Shown: in pieces, positions 6,300-55,620 of the stretch
Numbering within the stretch: the stretch's first letter is position 1
How the letters are laid out: every line of letters begins with the position of its first letter
Origin: a virus
Length of the DNA stretch: 64,000 nt
Reading direction: 5' to 3' (one strand)
IMG/VR virus record: IMGVR_UViG_3300037804_000399
Coordinates: 26,832 to 90,831 of that record
Program-made: the position numbers and the translations under genes
The notes under the pieces: model-generated
Told to the model about the DNA's origin: nothing
The model's database searches: none
What the model saw: the letters and a program-made list of their open reading frames with translations, nothing else

Positions 6300-7268
6300 G
6301 TGCCAGCTAAAATTACCAATGAAATATTCACTCAAAGGTTCTATGTGAACTTTGAGCCTAAGTATATTATAATTAAAGATTCCTTTATTAAAATGAGTAG
6401 TAAGGTAGGAATCAATTGTCCTGATCACGGAGATAATTGGGTGATTGCAAGTAGTTTATTTAGAAAGGATATTTCTTTACCTTGTCCTATTTGTTCAAGA
6501 CAAAAACTTAGTAAAAATATGCAACATACGTGTGAAGAGTTTGTACAAAAAGCAAAGTCATTCTCAAACTCTTCACATATTGACTACTCAAAAGTTGAGT
6601 ATAAAAATACTAACACCCCTGTTGTATTAATTTGTAAAGAACATGGTGAGTTTAAGTGTACTCCAAGAGCCCATTTGAGACTTCTACGAGATGGTGGCAC
6701 ACCTTGTAAGAAATGTAGAGGAAAGTCTCAATTAAAATCACATGACCAAGTTATTGAATCTTTTAGAAAAATACATGGTAACATGTATGATTATTCCAAA
6801 GTTGATTATAAAGGAGCTACTAAAAAAGTAATTATCACTTGTCCCAAACACGGTGAATTTCATCAAGTGGTTAGAAATCATTATTCAGGTGCTGGATGTC
6901 CAGTGTGCTGCGAATCGAAAGGTGAAAAGATTGTAAGACAATCACTAGAAGAGTCAAACATAAGTTTTATTAAAGAATATAAATTCGATGATTGCAGAGG
7001 TTACAAGCGACCACTTCCATTTGATTTTTATCTTCCTGAATTACATATTTGTATTGAGTATGATGGAATACAACATTTTGCTGGTGGCGATCATCACTTT
7101 GGTAAGAAAGGAGGATTTGAGGCTACTCAAAAGAACGATGACATCAAGACAAATTTCTGTAATGATAACGGCATTCAATTAATTAGAGTTGATTATACAA
7201 TGACAAGAGAAACAATCATAAATACTATTACTGAATTACACAATCAAAAGGAATACAAGTATGAATAA
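6300..7268 (+). CDS. Zinc-ribbon PD-(D/E)XK endonuclease, probable free-standing mobile endonuclease
   Basis: A 322-residue protein with GTG start. It has three repeats of about 60 residues, each with a C-x-x-H-G motif and a later C-x-x-C pair (residues about 40-65, 108-140 and 176-203), likely zinc-binding DNA-contact modules; two also carry a YDYSKV/IDYSKV turn. The C-terminal domain (about 205-315) has F-D-F-Y-L-P, I-E-Y-D-G-I-Q-H-F and N-G-I-Q-L-I-R-V, typical of the VSR-like/EDxHD branch of PD-(D/E)XK nucleases. It sits between a neck gene and tagged genes, behind a ribosome-site hairpin, as T4 homing endonuclease genes do. Its target is unknown. Confidence 0.7.
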   Translation: MPAKITNEIFTQRFYVNFEPKYIIIKDSFIKMSSKVGINCPDHGDNWVIASSLFRKDISLPCPICSRQKLSKNMQHTCEEFVQKAKSFSNSSHIDYSKVEYKNTNTPVVLICKEHGEFKCTPRAHLRLLRDGGTPCKKCRGKSQLKSHDQVIESFRKIHGNMYDYSKVDYKGATKKVIITCPKHGEFHQVVRNHYSGAGCPVCCESKGEKIVRQSLEESNISFIKEYKFDDCRGYKRPLPFDFYLPELHICIEYDGIQHFAGGDHHFGKKGGFEATQKNDDIKTNFCNDNGIQLIRVDYTMTRETIINTITELHNQKEYKYE

Positions 7269-7311
7269 AACACAAGATATTTTTAAAGCATATCGCAGTA
7301 TGCTCAATGAA
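7247..7311 (+). repeat. Direct repeat, copy 1 (ribosome site plus tag coding sequence)
   Basis: This 65-bp segment runs from the AAAGGAATACA ribosome site to the end of the tag codons. It matches 8560-8624 with three mismatches, while the genes diverge completely beyond it. Confidence 0.85.
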
Positions 7312-7935
7312 GATGCTAATGAATTTGAGACAGGCACAGCAACTTTTAAAACAAACACTTATGCGTCATCATTGAAGAGATTTTTAACAAAAAGGTTAAA
7401 AGCTTCTACAGAAGGATTGCTGGTAGGTGACATTCTTTCAGGTGATAAGCCAGAAGTAGTATTTCAAAAAGATTTAAAAAGTGTTGATTATGTTATACCT
7501 AATAGGTTTTCAAATATATTATCTGATCGTGTAAAATCATTACAAGATCGAGAAAATGAAGCATTGGAGAGTGGAGAAATTTCTTTAAATGAGGGCCAAC
7601 CATTTTCAATTTTTCCAATTAATCCAACCAATGAATTGAAATCAATGCTAAATGACTGGTTTCCTGAATTACTCCAACATGCTCAAGCTTCATCAGAAAA
7701 ACTAGAACAGTTTGTTGGTAAAGATGTAAAAAAGGAAGCTTATGTTACTATACCATTTCCAGAAGATAATCCAATTTGGACCATAAGAGGTGAAGAATAC
7801 GATAGTGATGATAAAGAAATTAATGTTTCTGAAATCATCATAAGAAAGAATCAAAAGAATATTGGATCAATTCATGTTCCCACTGACTTAATGAATAAAT
7901 ATTTAGAAGACAAAAACATTACAATAGGATTTTAA
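7261..7935 (+). CDS. Capsid-targeted protein candidate (tagged family), unknown function
   Basis: A 224-residue protein whose tag reads MNKTQDIFKAYRSMLNE, with a predicted cut after E17. The N-terminal 17 codons and the ribosome site are nearly identical at DNA level to those of the gene at 8574, but the bodies are unrelated. The mature part is charged, with no recognised domain. It overlaps the end of the endonuclease gene by 8 nt. The late promoter at 5433, or one within the hairpin at 6245, could drive it. Packaging in the head is inferred from the tag. Confidence 0.75.
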   Translation: MNKTQDIFKAYRSMLNEDANEFETGTATFKTNTYASSLKRFLTKRLKASTEGLLVGDILSGDKPEVVFQKDLKSVDYVIPNRFSNILSDRVKSLQDRENEALESGEISLNEGQPFSIFPINPTNELKSMLNDWFPELLQHAQASSEKLEQFVGKDVKKEAYVTIPFPEDNPIWTIRGEEYDSDDKEINVSEIIIRKNQKNIGSIHVPTDLMNKYLEDKNITIGF

Positions 7936-7944
7936 GGATTTATA

Positions 7945-8544
7945 ATGAAACAAACAATAATGGAAGCATATAGTAACATTTCAAAGGATATTTTACAAGA
8001 TAGTATAAAAACTATTGTAACTGAAGATGCCAATGAAGAGTTTGAACAACAACTAGCTGATGATGATTATCAAAGAGGAATCGATCCACATTTTGATGAT
8101 GAAGATGGGAGTCCTGAGTTTGGTCCTGATGAAACAGACGATGAAAATAAGTATCTTGATGGTGCTTGGTACGCCACTATTTCAAAGAAGAAAGGTTTCA
8201 GAAGAGCGTTAAGATATAATGAAGTTCTTGGAACATTTGAAAATGGTCGTGGAGTTTCTGTAGATGAAAGCATAGCCTATATTGGAAAAGAAATACCTTT
8301 TTCATTCTGGCCAGTAGAATCATCAAATGAATCTATGATCATTCCTGGAGCAAAAGACACAATTGACAATCAATTGTCAAAAGATTGGGAAGCTGAAGAA
8401 GAAGTAGAAGCTGAAATCGATTCACGTGAACTTCCTAAAGGATCTGAGCCAGTAGAGCTCAAAGAAAGTAAAGTATTACCAACATCATCTATAATGGATG
8501 TATATAATAACATATCAACTGAACCTGTTGATAAAAACAGCTAA
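7945..8544 (+). CDS. Capsid-targeted protein candidate with tag-like motifs at both ends
   Basis: A 199-residue, strongly acidic protein. It starts with the tag (MKQTIMEAYSNIS), but the first good hydrophobic-x-Glu site is later, at V25-T26-E27. A second copy of the motif (SSIMDVYNNISTE) lies about 15 residues from the C-terminus. The middle has a WYATISKKKGFRRALRY stretch that is the only basic part. Ribosome site AAGGATTT precedes ATG 7945. No family is recognised. The double tag is unusual and could mean two cleavages or a scaffold interaction. Confidence 0.7.
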   Translation: MKQTIMEAYSNISKDILQDSIKTIVTEDANEEFEQQLADDDYQRGIDPHFDDEDGSPEFGPDETDDENKYLDGAWYATISKKKGFRRALRYNEVLGTFENGRGVSVDESIAYIGKEIPFSFWPVESSNESMIIPGAKDTIDNQLSKDWEAEEEVEAEIDSRELPKGSEPVELKESKVLPTSSIMDVYNNISTEPVDKNS

Positions 8545-8559
8545 ATTAATGATTAAACG

Positions 8560-8624
8560 AAAGGAATACAGGTATGAATAAAACACAAGATATTTTTAAA
8601 GCATATCACGGTATGCTCAATGAA
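8560..8624 (+). repeat. Direct repeat, copy 2 (ribosome site plus tag coding sequence)
   Basis: This is the partner of 7247-7311, with 62 of 65 bases identical. It covers the ribosome site and first 17 codons of the gene at 8574. Confidence 0.85.
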
Positions 8625-9071
8625 TCAAACGTTATGAGTGAGAATGTTTCGGACGATGACTTCTATGTCATTTCAGAGTGGGACGGAGAGTATGATAACT
8701 GGACTGTTATTGGCGGACCGTTTACTAAAGTAAATGGTGAATGGATTTGTGCTAGTGATGTTGAAGGAGAGTATGGTGATAACGAGAGACTTCGTATTAT
8801 TTCAATAGCAACTTATGATGAGATGCTCAGAGATAATAAAGCAAATTACGATAAAATGACCAGTGGTAATGAATCAATTTCAGAATTAGGAGAATCATCT
8901 GATATGGATAAACTTTATTTATCCATAGACGAAAAACTACTAATCATTAGATTTGCGTTAGAAGAGGATTACGGAAACATTGAAGGTATACTTAATGACA
9001 TAAAAACTCAGATTGGTGAAGAAGAGTGGATGGAATTAGTATCAGCTGCTCGCAGAACTGCAAAGAAATAA
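8574..9071 (+). CDS. Capsid-targeted protein candidate (tagged family), unknown function
   Basis: A 165-residue acidic protein. Its tag MNKTQDIFKAYHGMLNE is almost identical to that of the gene at 7261 and is followed by Ser18, again giving L-x-E as cleavage site. A W-D-G-E-Y-D-N-W-T-V-I-G-G-P-F segment near residues 35-50 could be a small beta domain. It closes the second cluster of tagged genes and is followed by a terminator. Function unknown; head packaging is inferred. Confidence 0.75.
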   Translation: MNKTQDIFKAYHGMLNESNVMSENVSDDDFYVISEWDGEYDNWTVIGGPFTKVNGEWICASDVEGEYGDNERLRIISIATYDEMLRDNKANYDKMTSGNESISELGESSDMDKLYLSIDEKLLIIRFALEEDYGNIEGILNDIKTQIGEEEWMELVSAARRTAKK

Positions 9072-10290: not shown

Positions 10291-12930
10291 ATGATTAGAA
10301 ATATTGATTATTCCGTTGAAGACGGAGTAGGCGTTATTGAGTTCTTTACATGGAACGAAGATAATGAAAGAGTAAATTTTAAACTGACACAAGAGTCTAG
10401 TTTACATTTTGAAAACCCAGCAGGTAAATTCAAAAGCATTTTAGGTACCAATCTTAAAAAGCAATCGTTCTCGAATTTATATCACCGAACAAAATTCATC
10501 AAAGAAAATAAACATTTAAATTATTTTGATATACAAACTCCTCAACGAGAGTTTCTTCAAAACATGTTTAGTGAAGTAAACGATCGAGATGACTTCGCTT
10601 TAAATCCTCTAAAGACTCAAATAATAGATATAGAGGTAGCTGTAGAAAAAGAATTTCCGCATCCTGATGTAGCAAAGTATCCAGTCAACTTAATAACAGT
10701 TCATGATTCATTTGAAAAGATGTATCATGTTTTTGCTTGGGGTGATACTATTGTAAGAAGAAAAGCAGAAGATTGTGAAACTGATTGGAGTAAAGTAGTT
10801 ATACATCAGTGCGGTTCTGAAAAAGAATTGTTTATAGAATGGATTAATTGGATGAAGTCTGATTATCCAGATGTGATAGCAGGATTCAACTCGCGACCAT
10901 TTGATATACCTTACCTAATTAATAGAGGAGAGCAAATAGTTGGAGAGGATAAGATCCTTGAAATTTCTCCTTGTAGAAAATTCAGAAAGGAACAATTCAC
11001 AAGTCGAATAACTCAACAACCAATTGACACTTATGCAATTGCTGGTATCACTCATTTAGATTATTTGATTTTATATCGTGACAAGTTCTCATATAAAAAC
11101 TTAGTAAACTTTAAATTAGATACTGTTTGTGAAGAAGAACTAAATGCAAGAAAGATTCATTATGATGGCACATATGAAGAATTTTGGAAGAATGACTTTC
11201 AGCTGTATACTGAATACAATATTCGAGACGTAGAGCTTCTTGTAAAACTTGAAGAAAAACTACAGTATGTGCAATTAGTAAGACAAGTTTGTAACATGGG
11301 ACTAGTAGAATACGAAGCTATCTATAAATCACTACCGTATGTAATTGGATCAGCTGTTGTTGCTGAAAAACGAAACACTGGTAGATTGTTCCCATCACCT
11401 CAAAACATTGATTATGAAAACATTGATGCTAAGTATCCTGGAGCATATGTTATGGATCCAGTAGTTGGACGATACAACTCTGTAATGTCAATGGATTTGA
11501 ATTCACTTTATCCTTCCATTATGATTACATTAAATGTTTGTCCGTCTACAAAGTTTGCTAAAATTATTAATAGAGAAGAAGATGGATCGATCACAATCAG
11601 AACTACAAAAGGAGTTGTGAAAGAATTAAATGCAAAAGAGTATAAAGCTGTTTTAGATCAGCACTGTACAGAATCATCTTATGATACGTTGTTTATAAAG
11701 CCATCAAAACAGAAAGGATGTATTCCAATATTCTTAGAAAGCTTATATGCTACTCGTAGAGCAGCAAAAGATACAATGCTTGAATGGCAGATGAAAGTAT
11801 CAGAAATAAAAAAGAAATTGAAAAGAAAGAATATTTCAGAGTCCAGAAAAGAAGAATTGGAAAAAGAACTCGCTTTTGCTTTATTAAATGATCAACGTTT
11901 TGGTACAAAGCAGTTGGTTTTAAAAATTGTATTGAATACAATGTATGGTATTTTAGGTAATAAATATTCTCCTATTTTTGATACTGATCTAGCTGGTAGC
12001 ATTACAGTAACTGGACAAACTATAATTAAAATGTCACAGTCGTTTGTTAATGCATACTTTAAGAAATTATATAATGCAGAAACAGATGTGGTAGTGTACG
12101 GTGATACTGACTCTTTCTACTTTAATGCAAAACCGCTTTCAGATGCTATATGTGGAGAGGACGGAGACATTAACGATGAAGGCAATATTCAATTAATATG
12201 TAAAGAGGGTGATAAGTTTGCAAGAATAATAAACAAATTCTGTTTTGAAAAGATTGTGAAAGATAAATTACACTCTGATCAAGATTGGATACAATTCAAA
12301 CGAGAAATGTTTTCTTCAGGAGCAATGTTCTTCAAAAAGAAAAGATATATTGCCAGAGTTAGAAATGATGAAGGTGTACCTGTTGATAAGTTTAAATATG
12401 TTGGAGTTGAATTAACTCGACAAGAGATTCCTCCTTTAGTAAAAACTAGATTAAAAGATTTTGTTGAAGTTTCATTTAAAGAGTTTTGGGATAATGAAAA
12501 AGCTCAAGAGAAGATGAATGAGATTTATGAATGGTTTATGGCGTTGGATCAAACTGAGATAGCTTGTATCAGTGGTGTCAACTCATGGAAAGAAGGAATT
12601 GGTTTCTTGAGAGCTGCAAAAGGAGCAGGAGTGCACTTGAGAGGATCTCAATATTACAATCAGCTTGTTGGTAAATTACATATGGAAGACAAGTACGATT
12701 TAATACAAAAGGGAACTAAAGTCCGTTATGTGTTATTAAAAGATAATCATTACAAGATTAATGTTATATCATATCCTGATCAATATCCAGATGAGTTTAG
12801 AGAACACTTCTTTGCGGACTATGACAAAATGTTTGCAAAAGCGGTTACATCTCCTATGAAACACTTCTTTAATGTCAATAAATGGCAACAATTCGATAAG
12901 GATTTTGAAAGTTCTTTCCTAGATGTATAA
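10291..12930 (+). CDS. 43: Family B replicative DNA polymerase (gp43-like)
   Basis: The 879-residue product compares with 898 in T4. The 3'-5' exonuclease motifs are intact: D113-I-E115, G-F-N-S-R-P-F-D, and Y-T-E-Y-N-I-R-D. Polymerase motif A is D402-L-N-S-L-Y, motif B K545-IVLNTMYG, and motif C Y-G-D605-T-D607-S. All catalytic Asp residues are present, so a proofreading replicase is expected. The ribosome site is AAAAGG. The leader at 10204-10290 has a weak promoter-like pair (ATACAT-16-GATATA at 10232-10259) and a 6-bp inverted repeat at 10235-10254. No intein or split is seen. Confidence 0.97.
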   Translation: MIRNIDYSVEDGVGVIEFFTWNEDNERVNFKLTQESSLHFENPAGKFKSILGTNLKKQSFSNLYHRTKFIKENKHLNYFDIQTPQREFLQNMFSEVNDRDDFALNPLKTQIIDIEVAVEKEFPHPDVAKYPVNLITVHDSFEKMYHVFAWGDTIVRRKAEDCETDWSKVVIHQCGSEKELFIEWINWMKSDYPDVIAGFNSRPFDIPYLINRGEQIVGEDKILEISPCRKFRKEQFTSRITQQPIDTYAIAGITHLDYLILYRDKFSYKNLVNFKLDTVCEEELNARKIHYDGTYEEFWKNDFQLYTEYNIRDVELLVKLEEKLQYVQLVRQVCNMGLVEYEAIYKSLPYVIGSAVVAEKRNTGRLFPSPQNIDYENIDAKYPGAYVMDPVVGRYNSVMSMDLNSLYPSIMITLNVCPSTKFAKIINREEDGSITIRTTKGVVKELNAKEYKAVLDQHCTESSYDTLFIKPSKQKGCIPIFLESLYATRRAAKDTMLEWQMKVSEIKKKLKRKNISESRKEELEKELAFALLNDQRFGTKQLVLKIVLNTMYGILGNKYSPIFDTDLAGSITVTGQTIIKMSQSFVNAYFKKLYNAETDVVVYGDTDSFYFNAKPLSDAICGEDGDINDEGNIQLICKEGDKFARIINKFCFEKIVKDKLHSDQDWIQFKREMFSSGAMFFKKKRYIARVRNDEGVPVDKFKYVGVELTRQEIPPLVKTRLKDFVEVSFKEFWDNEKAQEKMNEIYEWFMALDQTEIACISGVNSWKEGIGFLRAAKGAGVHLRGSQYYNQLVGKLHMEDKYDLIQKGTKVRYVLLKDNHYKINVISYPDQYPDEFREHFFADYDKMFAKAVTSPMKHFFNVNKWQQFDKDFESSFLDV

Positions 12931-25639: not shown

Positions 25640-26770
25640 ATGATTATAGTAAGTGGATGCCCTAGATCTGGAACTAGTTTAACTATGGATATTCTTCGTA
25701 AGGCGACTGGCGAAGAGAACATGATTGCTTCAAAATTTCCACAGAAAAGAGAGTTAGAAATCACAAGAGGGGAGGACGAATCAGATAGTGATTTCCAAAT
25801 ACGAAATTATTTGTTTCAAAAATTCAAACGTCCAGATAGAGATGATGATTATACTGACATGAATCCAAACGGATTTTGGGAATGTAAATTTTCTGTATTA
25901 GGAGTCGGAGCTGAATACGGGTCAAGACTATTCAATTATCACTCTGCAAAGTTTACCGAAACACTATTAGACACTGGTAAAGATAAAATTTGTAAAATCG
26001 TAAGTCAAGGTTTAATGTCATCCGATGTAAGATATATTGATAAAGTAATTTATTTAATAAGACATCCTAGAAACGTTGCAAAATCTCATGAAAGATTAAA
26101 GAGAGGGTTTGATGTTAAAGTAAATGGCAAGAAGCAAAATATATTTGAAGGATTGACCATACACACTCCTGAGATGTATATAGGAGTTACCATTCAAGCT
26201 TGTAGATGGATTTTAGAAAATCCAACCGTGCCAATATTATTTGTTAACTTTGATGATTTGTTATCTAACCCAACTGAAACAATTGACACTATTGCAGAGT
26301 TTGTCGAGTTCGGAGATTTTGAAAAATCTAAAACTATTGTAGATCCAGTGTTGAATAGAAGTAAAATTCAAGACATCGAACATGTGCTTTGGGAAGATGC
26401 TGAATTTGTTTATGAACAGTTTAATAAACAAAACTATCAGGAAATATTAGATTACTTCGAAGATCCTACAAGAGCATATAGAAAATACACAGATAAATTT
26501 ATTTGCACTAGAACAAATGATGAAGTAACCAATCGTGATTGTCAGAGTTGTTTATCGAGTGACGTAGTCAAATACAATAAAAAAGTATTAGCCAATCACA
26601 AACAGATTGATTATTTAAAAGAACCTTGTATGTATGAATGCGGAAAGAATGTTGATACTGATTCATATAAAACCATTGAAGAAAGTATTAAAAACCATAC
26701 TTGGGATAATGGAAAGAAAATAATAGACGGAAAACTGGATGTTATTCCTAGTGGAAATACTTTAGGATAA
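25640..26770 (+). CDS. Sulfotransferase 1 (PAPS-dependent P-loop type)
   Basis: A 376-residue protein. The N-terminus V-S-G-C-P-R-S-G-T-S (residues 4-13) is the 5'-phosphosulfate binding loop of PAPS sulfotransferases, and I-R-H-P-R-N-V-A-K-S (R141 to S149) the 3'-phosphate site. A Cys module at the C-terminus (C-x(n)-D-C-x2-C, later N-H-K and E-P-C) is shared with the gene at 30336 and is not part of the usual sulfotransferase fold. The gene lies between adhesin genes, so a tail protein or a host surface glycan are plausible acceptors. Translation may be limited to late transcripts by the leader hairpin. Confidence 0.75.
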   Translation: MIIVSGCPRSGTSLTMDILRKATGEENMIASKFPQKRELEITRGEDESDSDFQIRNYLFQKFKRPDRDDDYTDMNPNGFWECKFSVLGVGAEYGSRLFNYHSAKFTETLLDTGKDKICKIVSQGLMSSDVRYIDKVIYLIRHPRNVAKSHERLKRGFDVKVNGKKQNIFEGLTIHTPEMYIGVTIQACRWILENPTVPILFVNFDDLLSNPTETIDTIAEFVEFGDFEKSKTIVDPVLNRSKIQDIEHVLWEDAEFVYEQFNKQNYQEILDYFEDPTRAYRKYTDKFICTRTNDEVTNRDCQSCLSSDVVKYNKKVLANHKQIDYLKEPCMYECGKNVDTDSYKTIEESIKNHTWDNGKKIIDGKLDVIPSGNTLG

Positions 26771-30335: not shown

Positions 30336-31226
30336 ATGATTGTAGTAACAGGAACTCCTCGTAGTGGAACTTCATTAGCAATGTTATCATTGGCAAAGTT
30401 AATTGGCAAAGATAAAATAGTAGGAGATAAGTTCCCTCAGAAAAAGAAAGCTCAAAATGCTGCCGAACGATATGTATATGAATTGAAGAATAATAATAAC
30501 TTGAACCCTACAGGGTTTTGGGAAAATTTAAAGTATATATCCAATGGATTTTCATATTCATCAGAAAATGAAAAAGAGTTTTATAAACTATCGACATCCT
30601 CTGATCATGCTGTTAAAATAATTGCTACTGGGTTACCAAAAACAGAACCAAAGTATATTGACAAGTTAGTCATCTGTTTGAGAGATCCTCTTGAAACTGC
30701 AACATCACAAACCGGACTTGTTGGACAAATTGGTCCAAGTGAAGCTGACCCTAAAAAACAAATCTTTGATTTAATAACGATTGCAAAATATATGATAGTA
30801 AATCCAAAGGTTGATTACTTTCTGCTGAATTATTCAGATCATAAGATAAATGCAAAATACACTATGGAACAATTAAGTGCATTTGTAGAAGTACCTTATA
30901 AGGAAAGCATTTACAAGGCCACTGGAAAGAAAACAATGAAGCGTCCCGATACAAAAATTTGGGACGAAGCATTTTACATTTACAATTTAATGATACAGGA
31001 AAATTTTCAAGCAGTGTGTGATTATTCCAATGATGTTACAACTGAGCTATCAAGACAAACAAAATCTTGGTTTTGTCCAAAGTTTGATTTTTTAACTAAT
31101 GATGATCGATGTAATACGTGTAGAAGCAATAGCAAGGTAAGAGAAAACTTTATTAAAAAAGCAAATCACAATAAACATGATCATGAAAACGAACCATGTT
31201 ACTTGGATCTATTAGAACAGGAGTAG
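30336..31226 (+). CDS. Sulfotransferase 2 (PAPS-dependent P-loop type)
   Basis: A 296-residue protein. V-T-G-T-P-R-S-G-T-S (residues 4-13) is the 5'-phosphosulfate loop; L-R-D-P-L-E-T-A-T-S (R116 to S124) is the 3'-phosphate site with the same R-to-S spacing as sulfotransferase 1. Both share F-P-Q-K-(K/R) after the loop, a G-F-W-E segment and the C-terminal module F-C-x(n)-R-C-x2-C with A-N-H-x-K and E-P-C. It starts 12 bp after the large adhesin gene and is probably in the same operon. The acceptor is unknown; a kinase is unlikely given the PRSGT loop. Confidence 0.75.
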   Translation: MIVVTGTPRSGTSLAMLSLAKLIGKDKIVGDKFPQKKKAQNAAERYVYELKNNNNLNPTGFWENLKYISNGFSYSSENEKEFYKLSTSSDHAVKIIATGLPKTEPKYIDKLVICLRDPLETATSQTGLVGQIGPSEADPKKQIFDLITIAKYMIVNPKVDYFLLNYSDHKINAKYTMEQLSAFVEVPYKESIYKATGKKTMKRPDTKIWDEAFYIYNLMIQENFQAVCDYSNDVTTELSRQTKSWFCPKFDFLTNDDRCNTCRSNSKVRENFIKKANHNKHDHENEPCYLDLLEQE

Positions 31227-37419: not shown

Positions 37420-37470
37420 ATACTATAGAGAGAATCACAAGTGCGTTTCCAATCACATTGGAGATTAAGA

Positions 37471-38043
37471 ATGGCTAGAAAAAGACACATATACTACGTT
37501 GGCAAAGAAGAATTGATGAGTGAGTTACGACTTTTCAATGAATCAATGGCAAAAGATCCACAAAATATAGGTACTGCTACTGAAGAACTTGGAGAAATGT
37601 TATTAAAGATTGCTACTAGGTATGCTACTCGTCCAAACTTTTGGCGATATTCGTTCCGAGAAGATTTTGTAAACGAAGCAATCTTTAGAATGGTTAAAAA
37701 CCTTCACAAAATAGATTTAAATCACCCGAAGTGTAATCCATTTAGTTACTTGACTATGATTTGTCATAATGTATTCATATTTTGGATCATGAAATCGAAG
37801 AAACATGAGAAAGCAAAACTAGAAATAGCAAGAGAACACCTTATCGATCTGGAATACATGAATGATATTGATAGGTCTCAACAATTACAAATTTTAGATG
37901 AAATTGAAACTGCTCAATTTGGTGAGAATGAAAAACGAGAAATGAAAACACCGAGAGCAAAGAAATTAGCAGATGCTAAGAAAGCTAAAGCAGAAGCAAA
38001 GGCAAAAGAAGAAGCAGAATCAACACCATCAAAAGAAAAATAA
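37471..38043 (+). CDS. 55: Late transcription sigma factor (gp55-like)
   Basis: The ATG at 37471 has a GGAG site 8 nt upstream and is preferred to the in-frame GTG at 37441. The 190-residue product follows T4 gp55 (185): K-E-E-L-M-S-E-L near the start, a central Y-S-F-R-E-D-F-V-N-E-A-I-F-R-M-V-K-N-L-H sigma region 2-like helix pair, and N-P-F-S-Y-L-T-M-I-C-H-N. The exact TATAAATA promoters in the window are its expected targets. The C-terminus is Lys/Ala/Glu-rich and lacks the hydrophobic-acidic clamp-binding end of T4 gp55. Confidence 0.8.
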   Translation: MARKRHIYYVGKEELMSELRLFNESMAKDPQNIGTATEELGEMLLKIATRYATRPNFWRYSFREDFVNEAIFRMVKNLHKIDLNHPKCNPFSYLTMICHNVFIFWIMKSKKHEKAKLEIAREHLIDLEYMNDIDRSQQLQILDEIETAQFGENEKREMKTPRAKKLADAKKAKAEAKAKEEAESTPSKEK

Positions 38044-42280: not shown

Positions 42281-43270
42281 ATGTTTAGCGAATTCGACAA
42301 ATCATTATTTGTAAGAGAAAAACTTAATATTCTTGTTAGCAATATGAATATCATGAGAGATGTTTGGAGATTCAGATGTCCCATCTGTGGTGACTCAAGT
42401 AGAAACTCTCATAAGAAGCGTGGCAATTATTACTTAGGTACAAATAGCTATTATTGTTTTAACTGTGCTTATTCTGGATCTGGGTTTCACTTAGTCGCAA
42501 AAATATCAGGTAGAACATATTCAGATGTTCAATCAGAATTCTTATGTAGCTTGCGAGATATGTCAACAACAACAGCAGCTCCTATTATAAATGAGCAGCC
42601 CGATTATAGTTCACTTACTCCTGTCACAGCTACAATATCGGAAAAACATCACATTCCTTCTAATTGGCTTACTCCTGAAGATGAAGTAAAACAATTAATC
42701 GAAGATCGACAATTGTATTCTGCTCCATTCTTACAGAGAAATTTCAAATTATATTATGATGAGAATCAAAACAAACTTGTTATTCCATGGATGAGAGAAG
42801 GTCAATTTAAATGCGCTCAATATAGAAAGCTTGATAATTCAAATGGACCAAAATACATTTTTGAAAAGAATGCTCCTAAAGATGTAATGAATTTGGACAT
42901 TGTTGACGAGTCATTGGACTTTATTTTCTTAGTGGAAGGAGTATTTGATGCAATTTTTGTTCGCAATGGGGTAGCTGTTGGAGGTCTTAATGTTTCTCGT
43001 AAACAATTAGACCTGATAGAAGAAAAATCTACAGCAAAAGTAGTTTACATGCCTGATAATCAGCACACTGACAGGGCTTCTAAAGAATTCTCTGAAAAAT
43101 TAATAGATAAAGGTAAGCTAGTTTTCATTTGGCCAAAAAGTATTACTCAAAAGGACGTCAATAGCTACGTTACTGAGACAGGGAATACTGATTTCGAGGA
43201 TTTTGACTGGCTAGTCAAACATATTTCGAGAGGGCCAGTAGCAAAATTGAAATTAAAAGGCATTAGATGA
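42281..43270 (+). CDS. 61: DNA primase (gp61-like)
   Basis: A 329-residue protein against 342 in T4. A zinc ribbon sits at C33-P-I-C36 and C59-F-N-C62, followed by a TOPRIM fold with F-L-V-E-G-V-F-D-A near residue 220 and M-P-D-N-Q-H-T-D for the metal-binding Asp. It makes RNA primers for lagging-strand synthesis with the gp41 helicase, which is not seen in this window. Ribosome site AAGGAATG. Confidence 0.88.
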   Translation: MFSEFDKSLFVREKLNILVSNMNIMRDVWRFRCPICGDSSRNSHKKRGNYYLGTNSYYCFNCAYSGSGFHLVAKISGRTYSDVQSEFLCSLRDMSTTTAAPIINEQPDYSSLTPVTATISEKHHIPSNWLTPEDEVKQLIEDRQLYSAPFLQRNFKLYYDENQNKLVIPWMREGQFKCAQYRKLDNSNGPKYIFEKNAPKDVMNLDIVDESLDFIFLVEGVFDAIFVRNGVAVGGLNVSRKQLDLIEEKSTAKVVYMPDNQHTDRASKEFSEKLIDKGKLVFIWPKSITQKDVNSYVTETGNTDFEDFDWLVKHISRGPVAKLKLKGIR

Positions 43271-43291: not shown

Positions 43292-43299
43292 TATAAATA
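43292..43299 (+). promoter_or_regulatory. T4-type late promoter TATAAATA
   Basis: An exact consensus match 38 bp upstream of the tagged AAA+ gene, although the neighbours on both sides are replication or chaperone genes. Confidence 0.8.
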
Positions 43300-43337: not shown

Positions 43338-45236
43338 ATGAAAAAATTTAAATCGTTTCACGAATCAATACTTCGTGAATGTATGTTGACAGAGGGATTT
43401 AAAGATTCTGAAGTTGGTAGAGTTTCTGAAATTATTGGAAATAAACTATCTAAAGAATTGGGTGTCCCTGTTGTACCATTTCACGAAACTCATTTCTACG
43501 AAAATGGCGATGGAGTAGGTAAAGGATTACTTTATTTTATCAATAATGATGCATCACGCTCAGTTCGTTTTAATATGAGTGATAGAAATAATATTTCATC
43601 CGTTGATATTTGGAAAAATGCGACAAAAGAAACCCCTACTCCTGATTCACGTATCGATGTGAGTGGAAAATATTCTGTTGAAACTATTAATATCGTTCTT
43701 CCAATTATCAAAGACCTTTTAGAAGGATCAACAGACGAAGAAGATATTGATTTTGCAAAGCTTGTTGATGAAGTCGACATGGAAATGAAATCATCTGATG
43801 TAGAAGTTGATGCAGAAGAACCTGAACAACTCGCTGCTAGTGTTGAAACATCAGATGCTCCTATCAATGAAGAAATCGAAGTTGATGGCGATGTATATCC
43901 TGATAACAAATCAGCTATTAAAGCGTTGTTAAGTGCGGGAATGTCCAAAGCAGAAATAGCAAAACAAATGAATCTCTCATACTCAGCAGTACGTCATCAC
44001 GCAAAAAAAATCGAAGGTGTTGAAGTAGTTGACGGTGTAGACGAACAACGTGTTGAAGCTGTTGCTGACGAAGAGCCTCAATGGATCAATGATATTTCAG
44101 AAGACGAATATAATAAAATGATTGAAGATGCTGGATCAGATCCATGGAATCTATCAATTGGCCAGAAGAAAGAACGTTACCGTGAGATGGTTGACCGTTT
44201 TGTAGATCCTGAAGGATCAGCTAAAGCAAAACTATTCGTAGTTTGTGGTTCTCCTGCTACAGGTAAAACTTATGACATCACATCTATCATGGAAAATGAT
44301 TATAAGATGGTTGAAGGAAAAGATTATTCATACAATAAAGGTGAATCCTCAAATACATCTGCAAAGCTGTTTGCTGAACTTTATAATAATCGCGAAGAGA
44401 TGGTTATTGTTTTTGATGATGCTGATGATGCTGTGACGAATTCAGATACTCGTCAGATATTAATGGCTGCTACTGATACATCAACTTCAGTTGTACAAGT
44501 AGATAACCGTCAATTAACATTTAGCAAATCTAAAGTTCAACGTAGAATGGATAACTTAAAAAACGCTCTTAGAACTGTAGTTGATATACAAGGCAGAGGC
44601 GACTTTGAAGATGATAATTTAGAACTTGGTGCAGATGAAATAACTGAACTTATTCGTCAATTTAGTGTAGCAGAAAGATTTGCTAAGATGGACGAGTACG
44701 ATTTCAATGAACTGTGGCTTGAGAAGGCTGGAGAGATTTTAAATTCTCTTTCACCTATCATGAAAGACAGTCCAGTTCTTAAACAGCAATTGAAAAACTT
44801 TACTAATCTTGAAAATGAATATATTCGTATCAAGAATAAGGAACGTCTTCCAAATAAGTTTGAATTCAAAAGTAAGATCATTGTTATTACTAACATGGTT
44901 AAAGAAAAGATTGACGGTGCACTTCTTTCTCGTGCAATGGTTCAAGAGATTATTGTTGATCAAGATGAAATGCTTGACCTTATTCGTACTATCCTTCCTT
45001 ATATGAGACCGGATGATGCTGATTTGAAAATAAAAGAAATTATTCTTAAAACTATTATGATGAAAGAAAGTAGAAACCCTTCCCTGAGATCAAATGGAAG
45101 ATATATCAAGTATGATATACCCGATAAGAAAGGTAGACTACCAACTCTTCCAATCAATCCTCGTAGAATTTATTTTGCGATTGATGAGTATCTTGCTGGT
45201 GGAGACTACAGAAAGAAGATCTTCCTTCACGGATAA
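43338..45236 (+). CDS. AAA+ ATPase with capsid-targeting-like tag and helix-turn-helix
   Basis: A 632-residue protein. Residues 1-19 (ending C-M-L-T-E before Gly20) resemble the T4 capsid-targeting sequence with its cleavage site. Then an alpha/beta domain, an acidic linker, a helix-turn-helix (about 203-225: S-K-A-E-I-A-K-Q-M-N-L-S-Y-S-A-V-R-H-H), and an AAA+ module: Walker A G304-S-P-A-T-G-K-T311, Walker B V-I-V-F-D360-D361, a sensor-like I-V-I-T-N and a C-terminal lid. It has its own exact late promoter, which supports a virion or head-assembly role. Whether it is packaged and injected or acts in assembly is open. Confidence 0.75.
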   Translation: MKKFKSFHESILRECMLTEGFKDSEVGRVSEIIGNKLSKELGVPVVPFHETHFYENGDGVGKGLLYFINNDASRSVRFNMSDRNNISSVDIWKNATKETPTPDSRIDVSGKYSVETINIVLPIIKDLLEGSTDEEDIDFAKLVDEVDMEMKSSDVEVDAEEPEQLAASVETSDAPINEEIEVDGDVYPDNKSAIKALLSAGMSKAEIAKQMNLSYSAVRHHAKKIEGVEVVDGVDEQRVEAVADEEPQWINDISEDEYNKMIEDAGSDPWNLSIGQKKERYREMVDRFVDPEGSAKAKLFVVCGSPATGKTYDITSIMENDYKMVEGKDYSYNKGESSNTSAKLFAELYNNREEMVIVFDDADDAVTNSDTRQILMAATDTSTSVVQVDNRQLTFSKSKVQRRMDNLKNALRTVVDIQGRGDFEDDNLELGADEITELIRQFSVAERFAKMDEYDFNELWLEKAGEILNSLSPIMKDSPVLKQQLKNFTNLENEYIRIKNKERLPNKFEFKSKIIVITNMVKEKIDGALLSRAMVQEIIVDQDEMLDLIRTILPYMRPDDADLKIKEIILKTIMMKESRNPSLRSNGRYIKYDIPDKKGRLPTLPINPRRIYFAIDEYLAGGDYRKKIFLHG

Positions 45237-45828: not shown

Positions 45829-46521
45829 ATGGCTGAAGACAACGAACAAACTAGACGGTTTTTAAATACTCAACGCCAAGCTGAATATTTATCTAACGAA
45901 CTAAAATATCAAAACGAGACTGTTAGTAAGACAGGTCAGAATATTGTTTCTCAAAACATTAATGGCGAGAAGTTTGATATTGAATTTCAAGCTCTTAACA
46001 GTACTGTGGTACTTAAAAAAGAATTACTACATAGAGTACGAGAATCAAATGGCATTATTGTTCCTGATACTATTGAAAAGAATACTCGTACAGATGCTGC
46101 GACTGTTGTTAGTAAAGGAGAAGATGTAATTTGGGACGATTTAAAAATCGGTGATAGGGTTATGTTTGATACTCATGCTGTTTTCAGACCTACGTTTCCG
46201 ATTTGCTGGTTGCAATTTGAAAATATTATAGCAAAACTTGATAAGGATGATAATATGGATCCAATAGGTGACTTTCTTCTTGTTGAAGAAATCCAAAATA
46301 CAGTAAAGAATGAATACGATGGACTTCTTGAAGTTCCAGATTCAGTAAAAGATGAAACTCCTTTGTATAAAGTACATAAGGTTGGTCCATTAGTAACAAA
46401 AGCATTTGTAGGTGATGTTGTAATGTTTAGAGGTGACACTTCAAACATTCATATTAATCTAAAAGGAAAAGATGTTTCGTTAGTTAAGGAAGGTGTCCTG
46501 TTAGGTATCATTCCGGATTAA
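45829..46521 (+). CDS. Tandem-duplicated GroES-like co-chaperonin
   Basis: A 230-residue protein containing two GroES-like barrels. The first (about 55-135) has V-V-L-K-K-E-L-L, G-I-I-V-P-D, V-V-S-K-G-E-D-V and I-G-D-R-V-M-F. The second (about 140-230) has P-I-G-D-F-L-L-V-E, D-G-L-L-E-V-P-D, V-H-K-V-G-P and V-G-D-V-V-M-F, ending L-L-G-I-I-P-D. Each has a mobile-loop position (S-N-G-I-I-V / Y-D-G-L-L-E). Single GroES or T4 gp31 are about 97-111 residues. It probably works with the phage GroEL at 53992 or replaces host GroES, as gp31 does for capsid protein folding. Confidence 0.75.
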   Translation: MAEDNEQTRRFLNTQRQAEYLSNELKYQNETVSKTGQNIVSQNINGEKFDIEFQALNSTVVLKKELLHRVRESNGIIVPDTIEKNTRTDAATVVSKGEDVIWDDLKIGDRVMFDTHAVFRPTFPICWLQFENIIAKLDKDDNMDPIGDFLLVEEIQNTVKNEYDGLLEVPDSVKDETPLYKVHKVGPLVTKAFVGDVVMFRGDTSNIHINLKGKDVSLVKEGVLLGIIPD

Positions 46522-49098: not shown

Positions 49099-49866
49099 TT
49101 GAAAAATGATATTATGCAAGCATATAAAGAGATGATCGCTGAAAGCGCATCACCTATATGTGAAAGTGCTGAAGCAATTGAGTATGACAAGGTTGTAAAA
49201 TCTACCCTTGAAGATGCTGGATTGTCGATGGCAAGTCTTGATGCTAAACAGAAAGAGATTATTGAAAAGACAAAGAAGTATGCTAAGCGTACAAACTGTC
49301 TACCAAATGGCTCTTGGAAAGAATTTCTCGAGATGTATGTACTTGATGAAAATCTATTTGATCCTGATAAATCAATCGAGAATTATAAGAAAGATTTGAA
49401 GACTCTCAAAACAGATATTGATGAAGACATGATTGCAGCTGAAGAAGCAAGTGAAGATGAAATCGATACTGACGAAATGGAGGATGAGCTTGACGCTGAT
49501 CTAGAAACTTTAGATGACGAAGTCGAAGAAGAAGTGGAGGATGAAGAAGTCGAAGAAGTCGAAGAAGTCGAAGAAGTCGAAGAGTCTGTTGAACAGTCAA
49601 TTAGTCCTTCTCTTAAACTTGGCCGTCCAGTTGTTCGTCCAGTAGTTGAAGATGCTTATGATAACGATCTAAAACAAGCTATGACATCTATGAAACCAGA
49701 AGACTTTGAACTTCTTAAAGACGCTTACTACTACGCAGCATATTCTGACAAAGTAGTAGAGCAATTAATGAAGTATAAATCCGATCCAGCTATTCAAAAA
49801 GAAATTGAATTGTGGCAAAAGATTGATAGTTTAATAGGTAACTCCATTTTAGGTTCCTACCTGTAA
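49099..49866 (+). CDS. Acidic tagged protein, prohead core or packaged protein candidate
   Basis: A 255-residue protein with TTG start and an AGGAGA ribosome site. The tag is MKNDIMQAYKEMIAE with cleavage predicted after E15. A helical region follows, then a highly acidic tract of Glu/Val/Asp near 140-165 encoded in part by four 9-bp repeats (49543-49578), then a globular C-terminus with D-A-Y-Y-Y-A-A-Y. It sits among topoisomerase and small early genes but has its own exact late promoter, supporting a head protein. The role is inferred from tag and promoter. Confidence 0.75.
   Translation: MKNDIMQAYKEMIAESASPICESAEAIEYDKVVKSTLEDAGLSMASLDAKQKEIIEKTKKYAKRTNCLPNGSWKEFLEMYVLDENLFDPDKSIENYKKDLKTLKTDIDEDMIAAEEASEDEIDTDEMEDELDADLETLDDEVEEEVEDEEVEEVEEVEEVEESVEQSISPSLKLGRPVVRPVVEDAYDNDLKQAMTSMKPEDFELLKDAYYYAAYSDKVVEQLMKYKSDPAIQKEIELWQKIDSLIGNSILGSYL
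49543..49578 (+). repeat. 9-bp tandem repeat coding for E-E-V
   Basis: Four perfect copies of GAAGAAGTC within the acidic tract of the gene at 49099. Confidence 0.85.
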
Positions 49867-53991: not shown

Positions 53992-55620
53992 ATGAAAAAA
54001 ATTACTTTTGACGGTGAAGCTCGTTCTAAAATTCTTAATGGAGTAGCACAACTTGCAAAAACGGTAAAGAGCACTTTAGGTCCACAAGGTTGTAATGTGG
54101 TAATCGATAAAGGGAATCTAGCTATTCCTGTTATCACAAAAGATGGAGTGTCGGTTGCACGTGAAATTCATATTCCTGATAGAGTAGAAAACATTGGTGC
54201 GCAATTAGTAAAGAATGTTGCTAATCAAACTAATGATGTTGCTGGTGACGGTACAACTACTGCTACTGTTCTTGCTGAAGCAATCTATACTGAAGGTCTA
54301 AAAACAGCTGCTGCAGGAATGAGCACTGCTAGATTGAAAGAAGGTATAGAAATCGCAACTAAACTTGTTATAGCTCATTTAAATGATGTTAAAGTTGATG
54401 TTACAGATGATATGTTAGAGAAGATTGCTACTATATCTGCAAACAACGATAGTGAAATTGGAAAGTTGATTGCTGCATCTATTTTAAAGGTCGGTACTGA
54501 TGGAACTGTTCGTGTTGAAAATTCTCATACTTCAGAAACACATCTTACCTCAATTGATGGATTCCAATATGATAGAGGAATGATTTCTCATTACTTCTGT
54601 ACTGATGATGACATGATTGGTGCTGAGTATGAAGACGCATTTGTACTTTGTTATGATGGTGAAATTGATAATGCAAATGACATTCTCCCACTACTAGGAA
54701 ACTTTTTAAAGACACATAACAATGCTCCTCTTGTAATTGTGTGTGATGATATTAAAGCTGATGCTCTTACAACTATTGTTCAAAATCATTTAGCGGGAAG
54801 ACTTCGTGTACTGCCTGTTAAAACTCCTGGTTTTCATGAAAGTAAACAATCGATGCTTGAAGACGTAGCTTGTATTACTGGTGCAGTAGCAATTACAGCC
54901 AACTGTGGTATTAAGTTAGACGAAGCCTCTCTTGATGTCCTCGGAAAGGTTAAAAAGATTGTTGCTACATCAACTAGTACAACCATTTATGGATCTGTCC
55001 CAAAAGATGTTATTGATTCAAGAGCAAAATTGGTTCGTGAACAATTAGCAAGTGCCAAGAGTGAATATGCTCAGTTTAATAACAAACTAAGACTTGCTCG
55101 TTTAACTACAGGTATTTCAATCATCAATGTTGGTGGTGCTAATGAAGTAGAGCTTAAAGAAAAGAAGGATCGTATTGAAGATTCATTAAATGCTACAAAA
55201 GCAGCACTAAAGAAAGGTGTTGTTCCTGGTGGTGGTATTGCTTTACTTAGAGCAGGCGAAGCTATCAAATCTAAAATTGCAAAAATGAAATTACATCTTG
55301 AGGTGAAGGCTGGAGTTGATATTATTATCAACGCAACTAAATCTCCGATCAGAACCATTTGTGAAAACGGTGGAAATAACGGCGAAGTTATTTCAAATAA
55401 AGTTCTTGAACAGTCAGATGTTAATTATGGATATGATGCTCGTAATGAAGTTTACGGTGATATGTTTAAAGCAGGAGTTATTGATCCAGTTCTAGTTACA
55501 ATGACTGCTTTGACAAATGCAAGTTCAATCAGTGCACTTCTTTTGACTACAAATGCAGTTATAACTTTAGATCCAGAAGCTTATCATAAAATGAAAGCTG
55601 TTGCTGAATCTAATAACTAA
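53992..55620 (+). CDS. groEL: Phage chaperonin GroEL
   Basis: The full-length 542-residue chaperonin compares with 548 in E. coli. The ATP site is conserved: D-G-V-S-V-A, A-G-D-G-T-T-T-A-T-V-L-A, and the late P-G-G-G-I-A-L; the catalytic Asp position in R-I-E-D-S-L-N-A-T is present. The C-terminus lacks the GGM repeats of bacterial GroEL. It has its own promoter and an AAGGAAAC ribosome site. T4 itself relies on host GroEL. Together with the double GroES at 45829 it may form a phage chamber for folding large capsid or tail proteins. Confidence 0.95.
   Translation: MKKITFDGEARSKILNGVAQLAKTVKSTLGPQGCNVVIDKGNLAIPVITKDGVSVAREIHIPDRVENIGAQLVKNVANQTNDVAGDGTTTATVLAEAIYTEGLKTAAAGMSTARLKEGIEIATKLVIAHLNDVKVDVTDDMLEKIATISANNDSEIGKLIAASILKVGTDGTVRVENSHTSETHLTSIDGFQYDRGMISHYFCTDDDMIGAEYEDAFVLCYDGEIDNANDILPLLGNFLKTHNNAPLVIVCDDIKADALTTIVQNHLAGRLRVLPVKTPGFHESKQSMLEDVACITGAVAITANCGIKLDEASLDVLGKVKKIVATSTSTTIYGSVPKDVIDSRAKLVREQLASAKSEYAQFNNKLRLARLTTGISIINVGGANEVELKEKKDRIEDSLNATKAALKKGVVPGGGIALLRAGEAIKSKIAKMKLHLEVKAGVDIIINATKSPIRTICENGGNNGEVISNKVLEQSDVNYGYDARNEVYGDMFKAGVIDPVLVTMTALTNASSISALLLTTNAVITLDPEAYHKMKAVAESNN

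Follow-up and report, generated by a model that had tools for sequence, protein, structure and literature searches.

The internal proteins (IPs) of bacteriophage T4 carry N-terminal propeptides of 10-19 aa (PMC9026906). For IPIII, ten residues were reported to suffice for packaging, with residues 4 and 7 mattering most for targeting and residues 8 and 10 for processing (PMC9026906), and injected T4 proteins inhibit type IV restriction enzymes (PMC12373910). Propeptides of 124-127 residues occur in gp50, gp53 and gp54 of SPN3US (PMC5694885). In the literature searched, no description of an AAA+ ATPase among proteins with such a capsid-targeting tag (CTS) was found. In the current study, a 64,000-nucleotide stretch of viral DNA (hereafter the window; it covers bases 26832-90831 of a viral metagenome record that is 90,831 bp long) was analysed, in which one gene encodes what is probably a late, capsid-targeted AAA+ ATPase that is packaged and injected. 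As judged from the sequence, its AAA module is not new and belongs to the NrdC.10 family (PHROG 1250), whose members are often annotated as thioredoxin or clamp loader; the new part is the architecture formed by the tag and an N-terminal domain (NTD).

Domains and genomic context of the AAA+ gene

The window is, by its predicted genes, a fragment of a T4-related myovirus (Table 1); a terminase gene was found in the flank outside the window. Named relatives are remote, with the DNA polymerase showing about 28% identity to cyanophage and methylophage polymerases. The same phage encodes both a GroES-like protein and a full GroEL. By eye, two genes amid large tail-fibre-like genes (25640-26770 and 30336-31226) have sulfotransferase-like P-loop starts (VSGCPRSGTSL and VTGTPRSGTSL). 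A sequence-only reading of this DNA had placed the AAA+ gene between primase and a chaperonin gene, and this order was found: the primase gene lies directly upstream, and a 144-aa ORF and then the GroES-like gene follow downstream.

Table 1. Positions of the features discussed, in window coordinates unless a contig label is given.
Feature	Position	Strand	Basis or remark
Capsid-tagged AAA+ ATPase gene (candidate), 632 aa, ATG start	43338-45236	+	ORF, AAA domain, 13 relatives of same architecture
CTS-like tag, residues 1-19, MKKFKSFHESILRECMLTE, F4 and F7, predicted cleavage E19/G20	43338-43394	+	T4 CTS rules; family boundary
N-terminal alpha/beta domain (NTD), residues 22-129	43401-43724	+	Profile from 7 relatives
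Helix-turn-helix, residues 190-226	43905-44015	+	PHROG 3855, E 1.8e-4; predicted helices
AAA+ module, NrdC.10 / PHROG 1250 family, residues 273-632	44154-45233	+	Profiles, alignments, fold
Walker A, GSPATGKT, residues 304-311	44247-44270	+	Invariant or near-invariant in alignments
Walker B, VIVFDD, residues 356-361	44403-44420	+	D360, D361 invariant
Sensor 1 N519 to arginine-finger-like R532 (N...ALLSR)	44892-44933	+	N519, R532 invariant
Helical insertion, about 100 aa, roughly residues 397-500	44526-44837	+	Alignment gaps; missing or shorter in relatives
T4-type late promoter box, TATAAATA, exact match	43292-43299	+	Ends 38 bp before ATG
gp55-like late sigma factor	37441-38043	+	PHROG 234, E 4.9e-28; would read TATAAATA
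Terminator-like hairpin with T run, right after stop codon	45256-45285	+	MFE -18.9 kcal/mol, z -7.1, 0/200 shuffles
Primase, directly upstream of AAA+ gene	42281-43270		PHROG 47, E 2e-44
GroES-like gene	45829-46521
GroEL, full chaperonin	53992-55620
Topoisomerase subunits	46981, 52579
DNA polymerase	10291
Head-tail adaptor	5481
Baseplate wedge	13937
gp47 / gp46	38181 / 39239
IMEAY-type tagged genes	201-752, 755-1252, 1245-1670, 7261-7935, 7945-8544, 8574-9071, 49099-49866; L009:5755-6009

The same reading had described the product as an AAA+ ATPase with a helix-turn-helix (HTH) and had proposed structure prediction and a search against AAA+ families, and both assignments were borne out. The module matched Pfam PF00004 (E 1.1e-4, passing its cut-off) and PHROG 1250 (E 3.5e-13), and AlphaFold and Foldseek gave an AAA+ fold. 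For the HTH, the PHROG match was accompanied by three predicted helices at residues 190-199, 204-211 and 215-224 (block-mean pLDDT about 85-92); many Pfam HTH families also matched, all below their cut-offs. Judged from the HTH, the protein probably binds DNA. The AlphaFold model of the whole protein had a mean pLDDT of 68.5, in which the NTD and HTH were well predicted and the AAA+ core was good, and four helices were predicted in the helical insertion at lower confidence than in the core. The model of the L022 relative had a pLDDT of 85.9.

Fold matches were to AAA+ proteins in general and, among viral models, to NrdC.10, including that of Aeromonas phage 25. RFC, dynein, CbbQ/NorQ and Rubisco activase scored close together in the fold searches, and therefore no narrower AAA+ class is claimed. 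A sequence search of the PDB gave no match, and PADLOC matches were weak and inconsistent. With complete Walker A, Walker B and sensor 1 motifs and an arginine-finger-like Arg, the AAA+ engine is, by its motifs, intact.

The N-terminal tag and the proteins that share it

T4 CTS propeptides comprise 10-19 residues with targeting at positions 4 and 7; the window protein likewise has F4 and F7, and its tag of 19 residues closes with LTE/G, where by sequence a prohead protease would cut after Glu. The earlier observation that the first 19 residues end in M-L-T-E before Gly was confirmed, with MLTE-G at residues 16-20. FHE9/S10 was also considered as the cleavage site, but LTE19/G20 was favoured because in the family this position marks the boundary that precedes the NTD helix. 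The 90.8-kb record, which is a fragment, yielded neither a prohead protease nor a major capsid gene, and control searches gave no signal either; the cleavage rule was therefore borrowed from T4 and from the relative L109. In the AlphaFold model, the tag had a pLDDT below 50, with residues 2-17 helical at low confidence. A possible second protease-like site, LLE129/G, lies at the end of the NTD (E129 codon 43722-43724), and a protease-like site near the NTD end was also present in L052, L059, L109 and L135. A second cut after E129 is regarded as suggestive only.

Thirteen relatives with the tag-NTD-AAA architecture were found beyond the window protein. With a degenerate DNA pattern designed on the sensor-1 region, 120 viral contigs were matched, 112 of them with an in-frame Walker A; most encode plain NrdC.10-type proteins, and seven (L022, L024, L052, L059, L107, L109 and L113) have the tag and NTD. 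An NTD-based DNA pattern added five more (L134, L135, L136, L138 and L140). Apart from two spurious 36-codon matches, every match to this pattern was genuine and was either fused to an AAA module or cut by a contig end. The remaining relative, reached via a weak match, has tag, NTD and AAA and is encoded by LR756502, a 642-kb uncultured phage (L004:3137-4456). An NTD profile built from seven relatives matched the window protein at E 6e-10, and the next best match among 2,197 ORFs had an E of 0.7. L138 is without its N-terminus; in all of the other 12 relatives the tag ends in a Glu cleavage-like site ahead of the NTD, and ordinary NrdC.10 proteins have neither tag nor NTD.

The boundary sites of the tagged proteins (ITE/AF, FLE/AF, FYE/AF, LNE/AS, ITE/SF and LNE/AQ, with LTE/GF in the window protein) mostly have a small residue after the Glu; imperfect sites were seen in L052 (LNE/V), L107 (LNE/K) and L135 (short). 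A strict [LIF]xE/[ASG] site in the first 20 aa was present in 10 of 13 members (window protein included, L138 excluded) compared with 2 of 55 untagged NrdC.10-type proteins (Fisher 6e-8) and, when one member per clade was counted, in 5 of 8 (p 1.5e-4). Moreover, F/Y-x-x-F/Y occurred within residues 1-12 of 11 of the 51 ORFs of tagged contigs, as against 55 of 1,286 in other contigs. On the AAA tree, a single change accounts for the tagged proteins (7.7 when shuffled); support for this grouping is weak (47/82), and the branch of the window protein is very long. In the tagged AAA protein of L140 (4099-6471, minus strand), an apparent intein lies exactly within Walker A (GVGK-C...HN-T).

When four tagged relatives and the LR756502 protein were used as queries, the AAA core was found in about 1,200 of 50,697 named phage records. 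At a query coverage of at least 80%, a relative matched only LR756502, itself metagenomic, among these records, and therefore the tag and NTD architecture seems to be absent from the cultured phages searched. Tblastn of the protein and megablast of the region against the 50,697 records gave nothing at 1e-5, and no relatives were recovered when viral contigs were scanned with peptide seeds taken from the window protein, the LR756502 protein, the alignment of this pair or the DNA polymerase.

Similar tags were found on about ten other proteins of the window phage. Two proteins of the record besides the AAA+ protein start with MKTFKQF (L008, about 11070-12254; L009:11868-13469); the latter has a cytidylyltransferase-like domain (PF01467). 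A second tag type, IMEAY and its variants (M-N-K-x-x-x-I-M-E-A-Y), begins about eight otherwise different proteins, which are candidate internal head proteins. Residues 1-20 of the 98 predicted proteins contain 12 [LI]xE[ASG] sites in all, whereas the remainder of these proteins would predict 4.1 (p 0.001). Genes neighbouring the AAA gene were also tagged in L004, L022, L024, L113, L136 and L140. In L113 (3300035698_019170), a run of genes starting MRLKQFI, MRLQHYI or MRLNNYL shares one contig-specific tag and includes, by eye, genes for HAD-like and DHH-like enzymes. Since many enzyme-like proteins of contigs such as L113 are tagged, the tag could instead send proteins to another destination, such as a membrane or an infection compartment, or could be a general amphipathic N-terminus; aromatic and basic N-termini can form amphipathic helices, and a low-confidence helix was indeed predicted in the tag. 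We nevertheless consider such a role quite improbable, since a conserved protease-like Glu site ends the tag at the NTD boundary, the motif is common to the protease and capsid proteins of L109, the gene is linked to a late promoter, and the tag closely parallels the experimentally tested T4 CTS.

The AAA gene of L109 is located upstream of genes for head closure, portal, prohead protease and major capsid protein. The protease protein (638 aa) contains ten [LIF]xE[ASG] sites and the capsid protein six, three of them in its first 26 residues; for at least one relative, this links the tag motif with the head protease. The long C-terminal part of this prohead protease (L109:7472-9388) is rich in the cleavage-type motif, and the protein is perhaps a protease-scaffold fusion. 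Taken together, residues 4 and 7, the protease-like site, the 13 relatives, the tag families and the motifs in gp21 and gp23 of L109 support the earlier suggestion of a packaging tag. The position of the L109 gene ahead of neck and head genes would also fit a head-assembly motor, in which the tag leads to the scaffold core and the protein acts as a chaperone or remodeller in prohead assembly or maturation, with no role after injection. The gene comes after gp46 in L059, the structural neighbours of the module include protein-remodelling AAA+ proteins (CbbQ, NorQ and Rubisco activase), and a part in jumbo phage virion assembly has been discussed for MoxR-vWA and BCS1-like AAA+ proteins (PMC7824862); no vWA family was found among the neighbour genes of the window AAA+ gene scanned with PHROGs. 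However, the HTH points to DNA, the mature part has LLE129/G as its one protease-like site whereas T4 scaffold proteins are cut to fragments, and T4 internal proteins that bear a packaging leader enter the host by injection and act on its defences (PMC12373910). A head-assembly motor is thus judged unlikely.

Signals for late transcription

An exact TATAAATA promoter had been noted 38 bp upstream of the gene, and the box was found there. As an 8-mer, TATAAATA occurs 8 times in the window versus 7.8 expected, which is chance level, and therefore only its placement was counted as evidence. Each of the six plus-strand copies of the window is intergenic and lies 20-76 bp ahead of a start codon, compared with 0.79 copies expected in intergenic DNA; none of 500 Markov simulations gave six or more intergenic plus-strand copies, and no minus-strand copy was present in intergenic DNA of the window. 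The genes behind these boxes include those for the head-tail adaptor (5481), the baseplate wedge (13937) and a second tagged protein, of the IMEAY type (49099). The whole record has ten plus-strand copies, of which one falls within a coding sequence, 58 bp ahead of the following start, and another is 1.1 kb from the next start; outside the window, the IMEAY-type gene L009:5755 has its own box 39 bp upstream. In the relative L052, TATAAATA begins 38 nt before the ATG of the AAA gene. Sigma-70-like sites near the AAA+ gene stayed at the level of shuffled sequence, and Rfam gave no match at the locus. From the placement of TATAAATA and the terminator-like hairpin, the AAA+ gene would very likely form its own late transcription unit. 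The predicted late expression, which the sequence-only reading had anticipated, fits the box placement together with the gp55-like sigma factor.

Another motif, TTAATATATA, was found 0-21 bp ahead of the AAA gene in L022, L024, L134 and L140. In L024 it also precedes other tagged genes and one further gene, whose product may start like a tail tube protein; it lies just upstream of tagged genes in L004 too. TTAATATATA is a possible late promoter of these large phages.

A further explanation would be that the protein is an ordinary NrdC.10-like phage ATPase whose N-terminus and TATAAATA box are products of chance. T4-like phages commonly have the AAA core, as the record counts above indicate, and TATAAATA is not over-represented across the window. 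Yet the NTD, tag and boundary site recur jointly in 13 relatives and the placement of TATAAATA is far from chance, which makes this explanation highly improbable.

Proposed role and comparison with known systems

We consider it reasonably probable that the protein is an internal head protein made late, an AAA+ ATPase with a capsid-targeting tag that is packaged, cut and injected and that acts on DNA. In the proposed mechanism, the gp55-like sigma factor would transcribe the gene late as a single-gene unit. The tag, through F4 and F7, would bind the scaffold core, and the protein would be enclosed in the prohead, where the prohead protease would cut after E19, and possibly also after E129, to free the HTH-AAA+ part. 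The mature protein would be kept in the head and injected together with the DNA. In the new cell, it would bind DNA via the HTH and work as an ATP-driven, ring-forming AAA+ remodeller; the HTH and AAA+ module suggest action on DNA or DNA-bound complexes. Its target would most likely be a host DNA-directed process such as restriction or defence, or else the incoming DNA might be prepared. In this chain of events, late synthesis and tag-driven prohead entry are based on sequence signals and comparison. Cleavage, retention in the head and injection we infer from T4 precedent, as we also infer packaging, ATPase activity and the target.

Because a small family of uncultured phages shares the layout, it may represent a molecular motor carried in heads and injected into bacteria. 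A bolder form of this proposal holds that a large T4-related phage lineage injects an encapsidated AAA+ DNA-binding ATPase as a ready-made machine, which is delivered by a tag that the protease removes, is perhaps also released from a targeting propeptide of 129 residues, and assembles in the cell to dismantle a host defence or a DNA-bound complex of the host before phage gene expression; this we regard as conceivable but short of probable. An injected AAA+ ATPase, if true, would widen the phage arsenal from small inhibitors to energy-driven machines. By means of the shared tags, candidates for injection could also be listed straight from the sequence of uncultured large phages, with about ten such candidate proteins in the window phage fragment and runs of them in relatives.

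The AAA+ module is homologous to T4 NrdC.10 / PHROG 1250 and shares with it the residues of Walker A, Walker B and sensor 1 and the arginine-finger-like Arg. NrdC.10 proteins are mostly about 250-350 aa, with a short N-terminal region directly before the AAA core; the window protein departs from this full-length layout in adding the tag, NTD, HTH and helical insertion. MoxR, CbbQ and NorQ were among the best structural matches to the module (Z about 13), but dynein, RFC and Rubisco activase scored equally or nearly as well, and the resemblance is therefore one to AAA+ proteins in general. The LR756502 protein has tag, NTD and AAA+ as in the window and is flanked by tagged genes, but it is shorter, has no recognisable HTH and is preceded by other upstream sequence; the record is unannotated. 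If the window protein were cut after residue 129, its propeptide would be close in length to those of SPN3US gp50, gp53 and gp54; the SPN3US head proteins have a different protease motif, AxE. T4 IPI, IPII, IPIII and Alt share with the window protein the aromatics at positions 4 and 7 and an (L/I)xE-type site within 19 residues; they are expressed late, as is predicted for the window protein, and are differently built proteins of one phage sharing tags, as also appears to be the case here. The T4 IPs are small and basic and Alt is an ADP-ribosyltransferase, whereas the window protein is an AAA+ ATPase. By this comparison, the predicted delivery is of the known CTS type and the cargo class is new.
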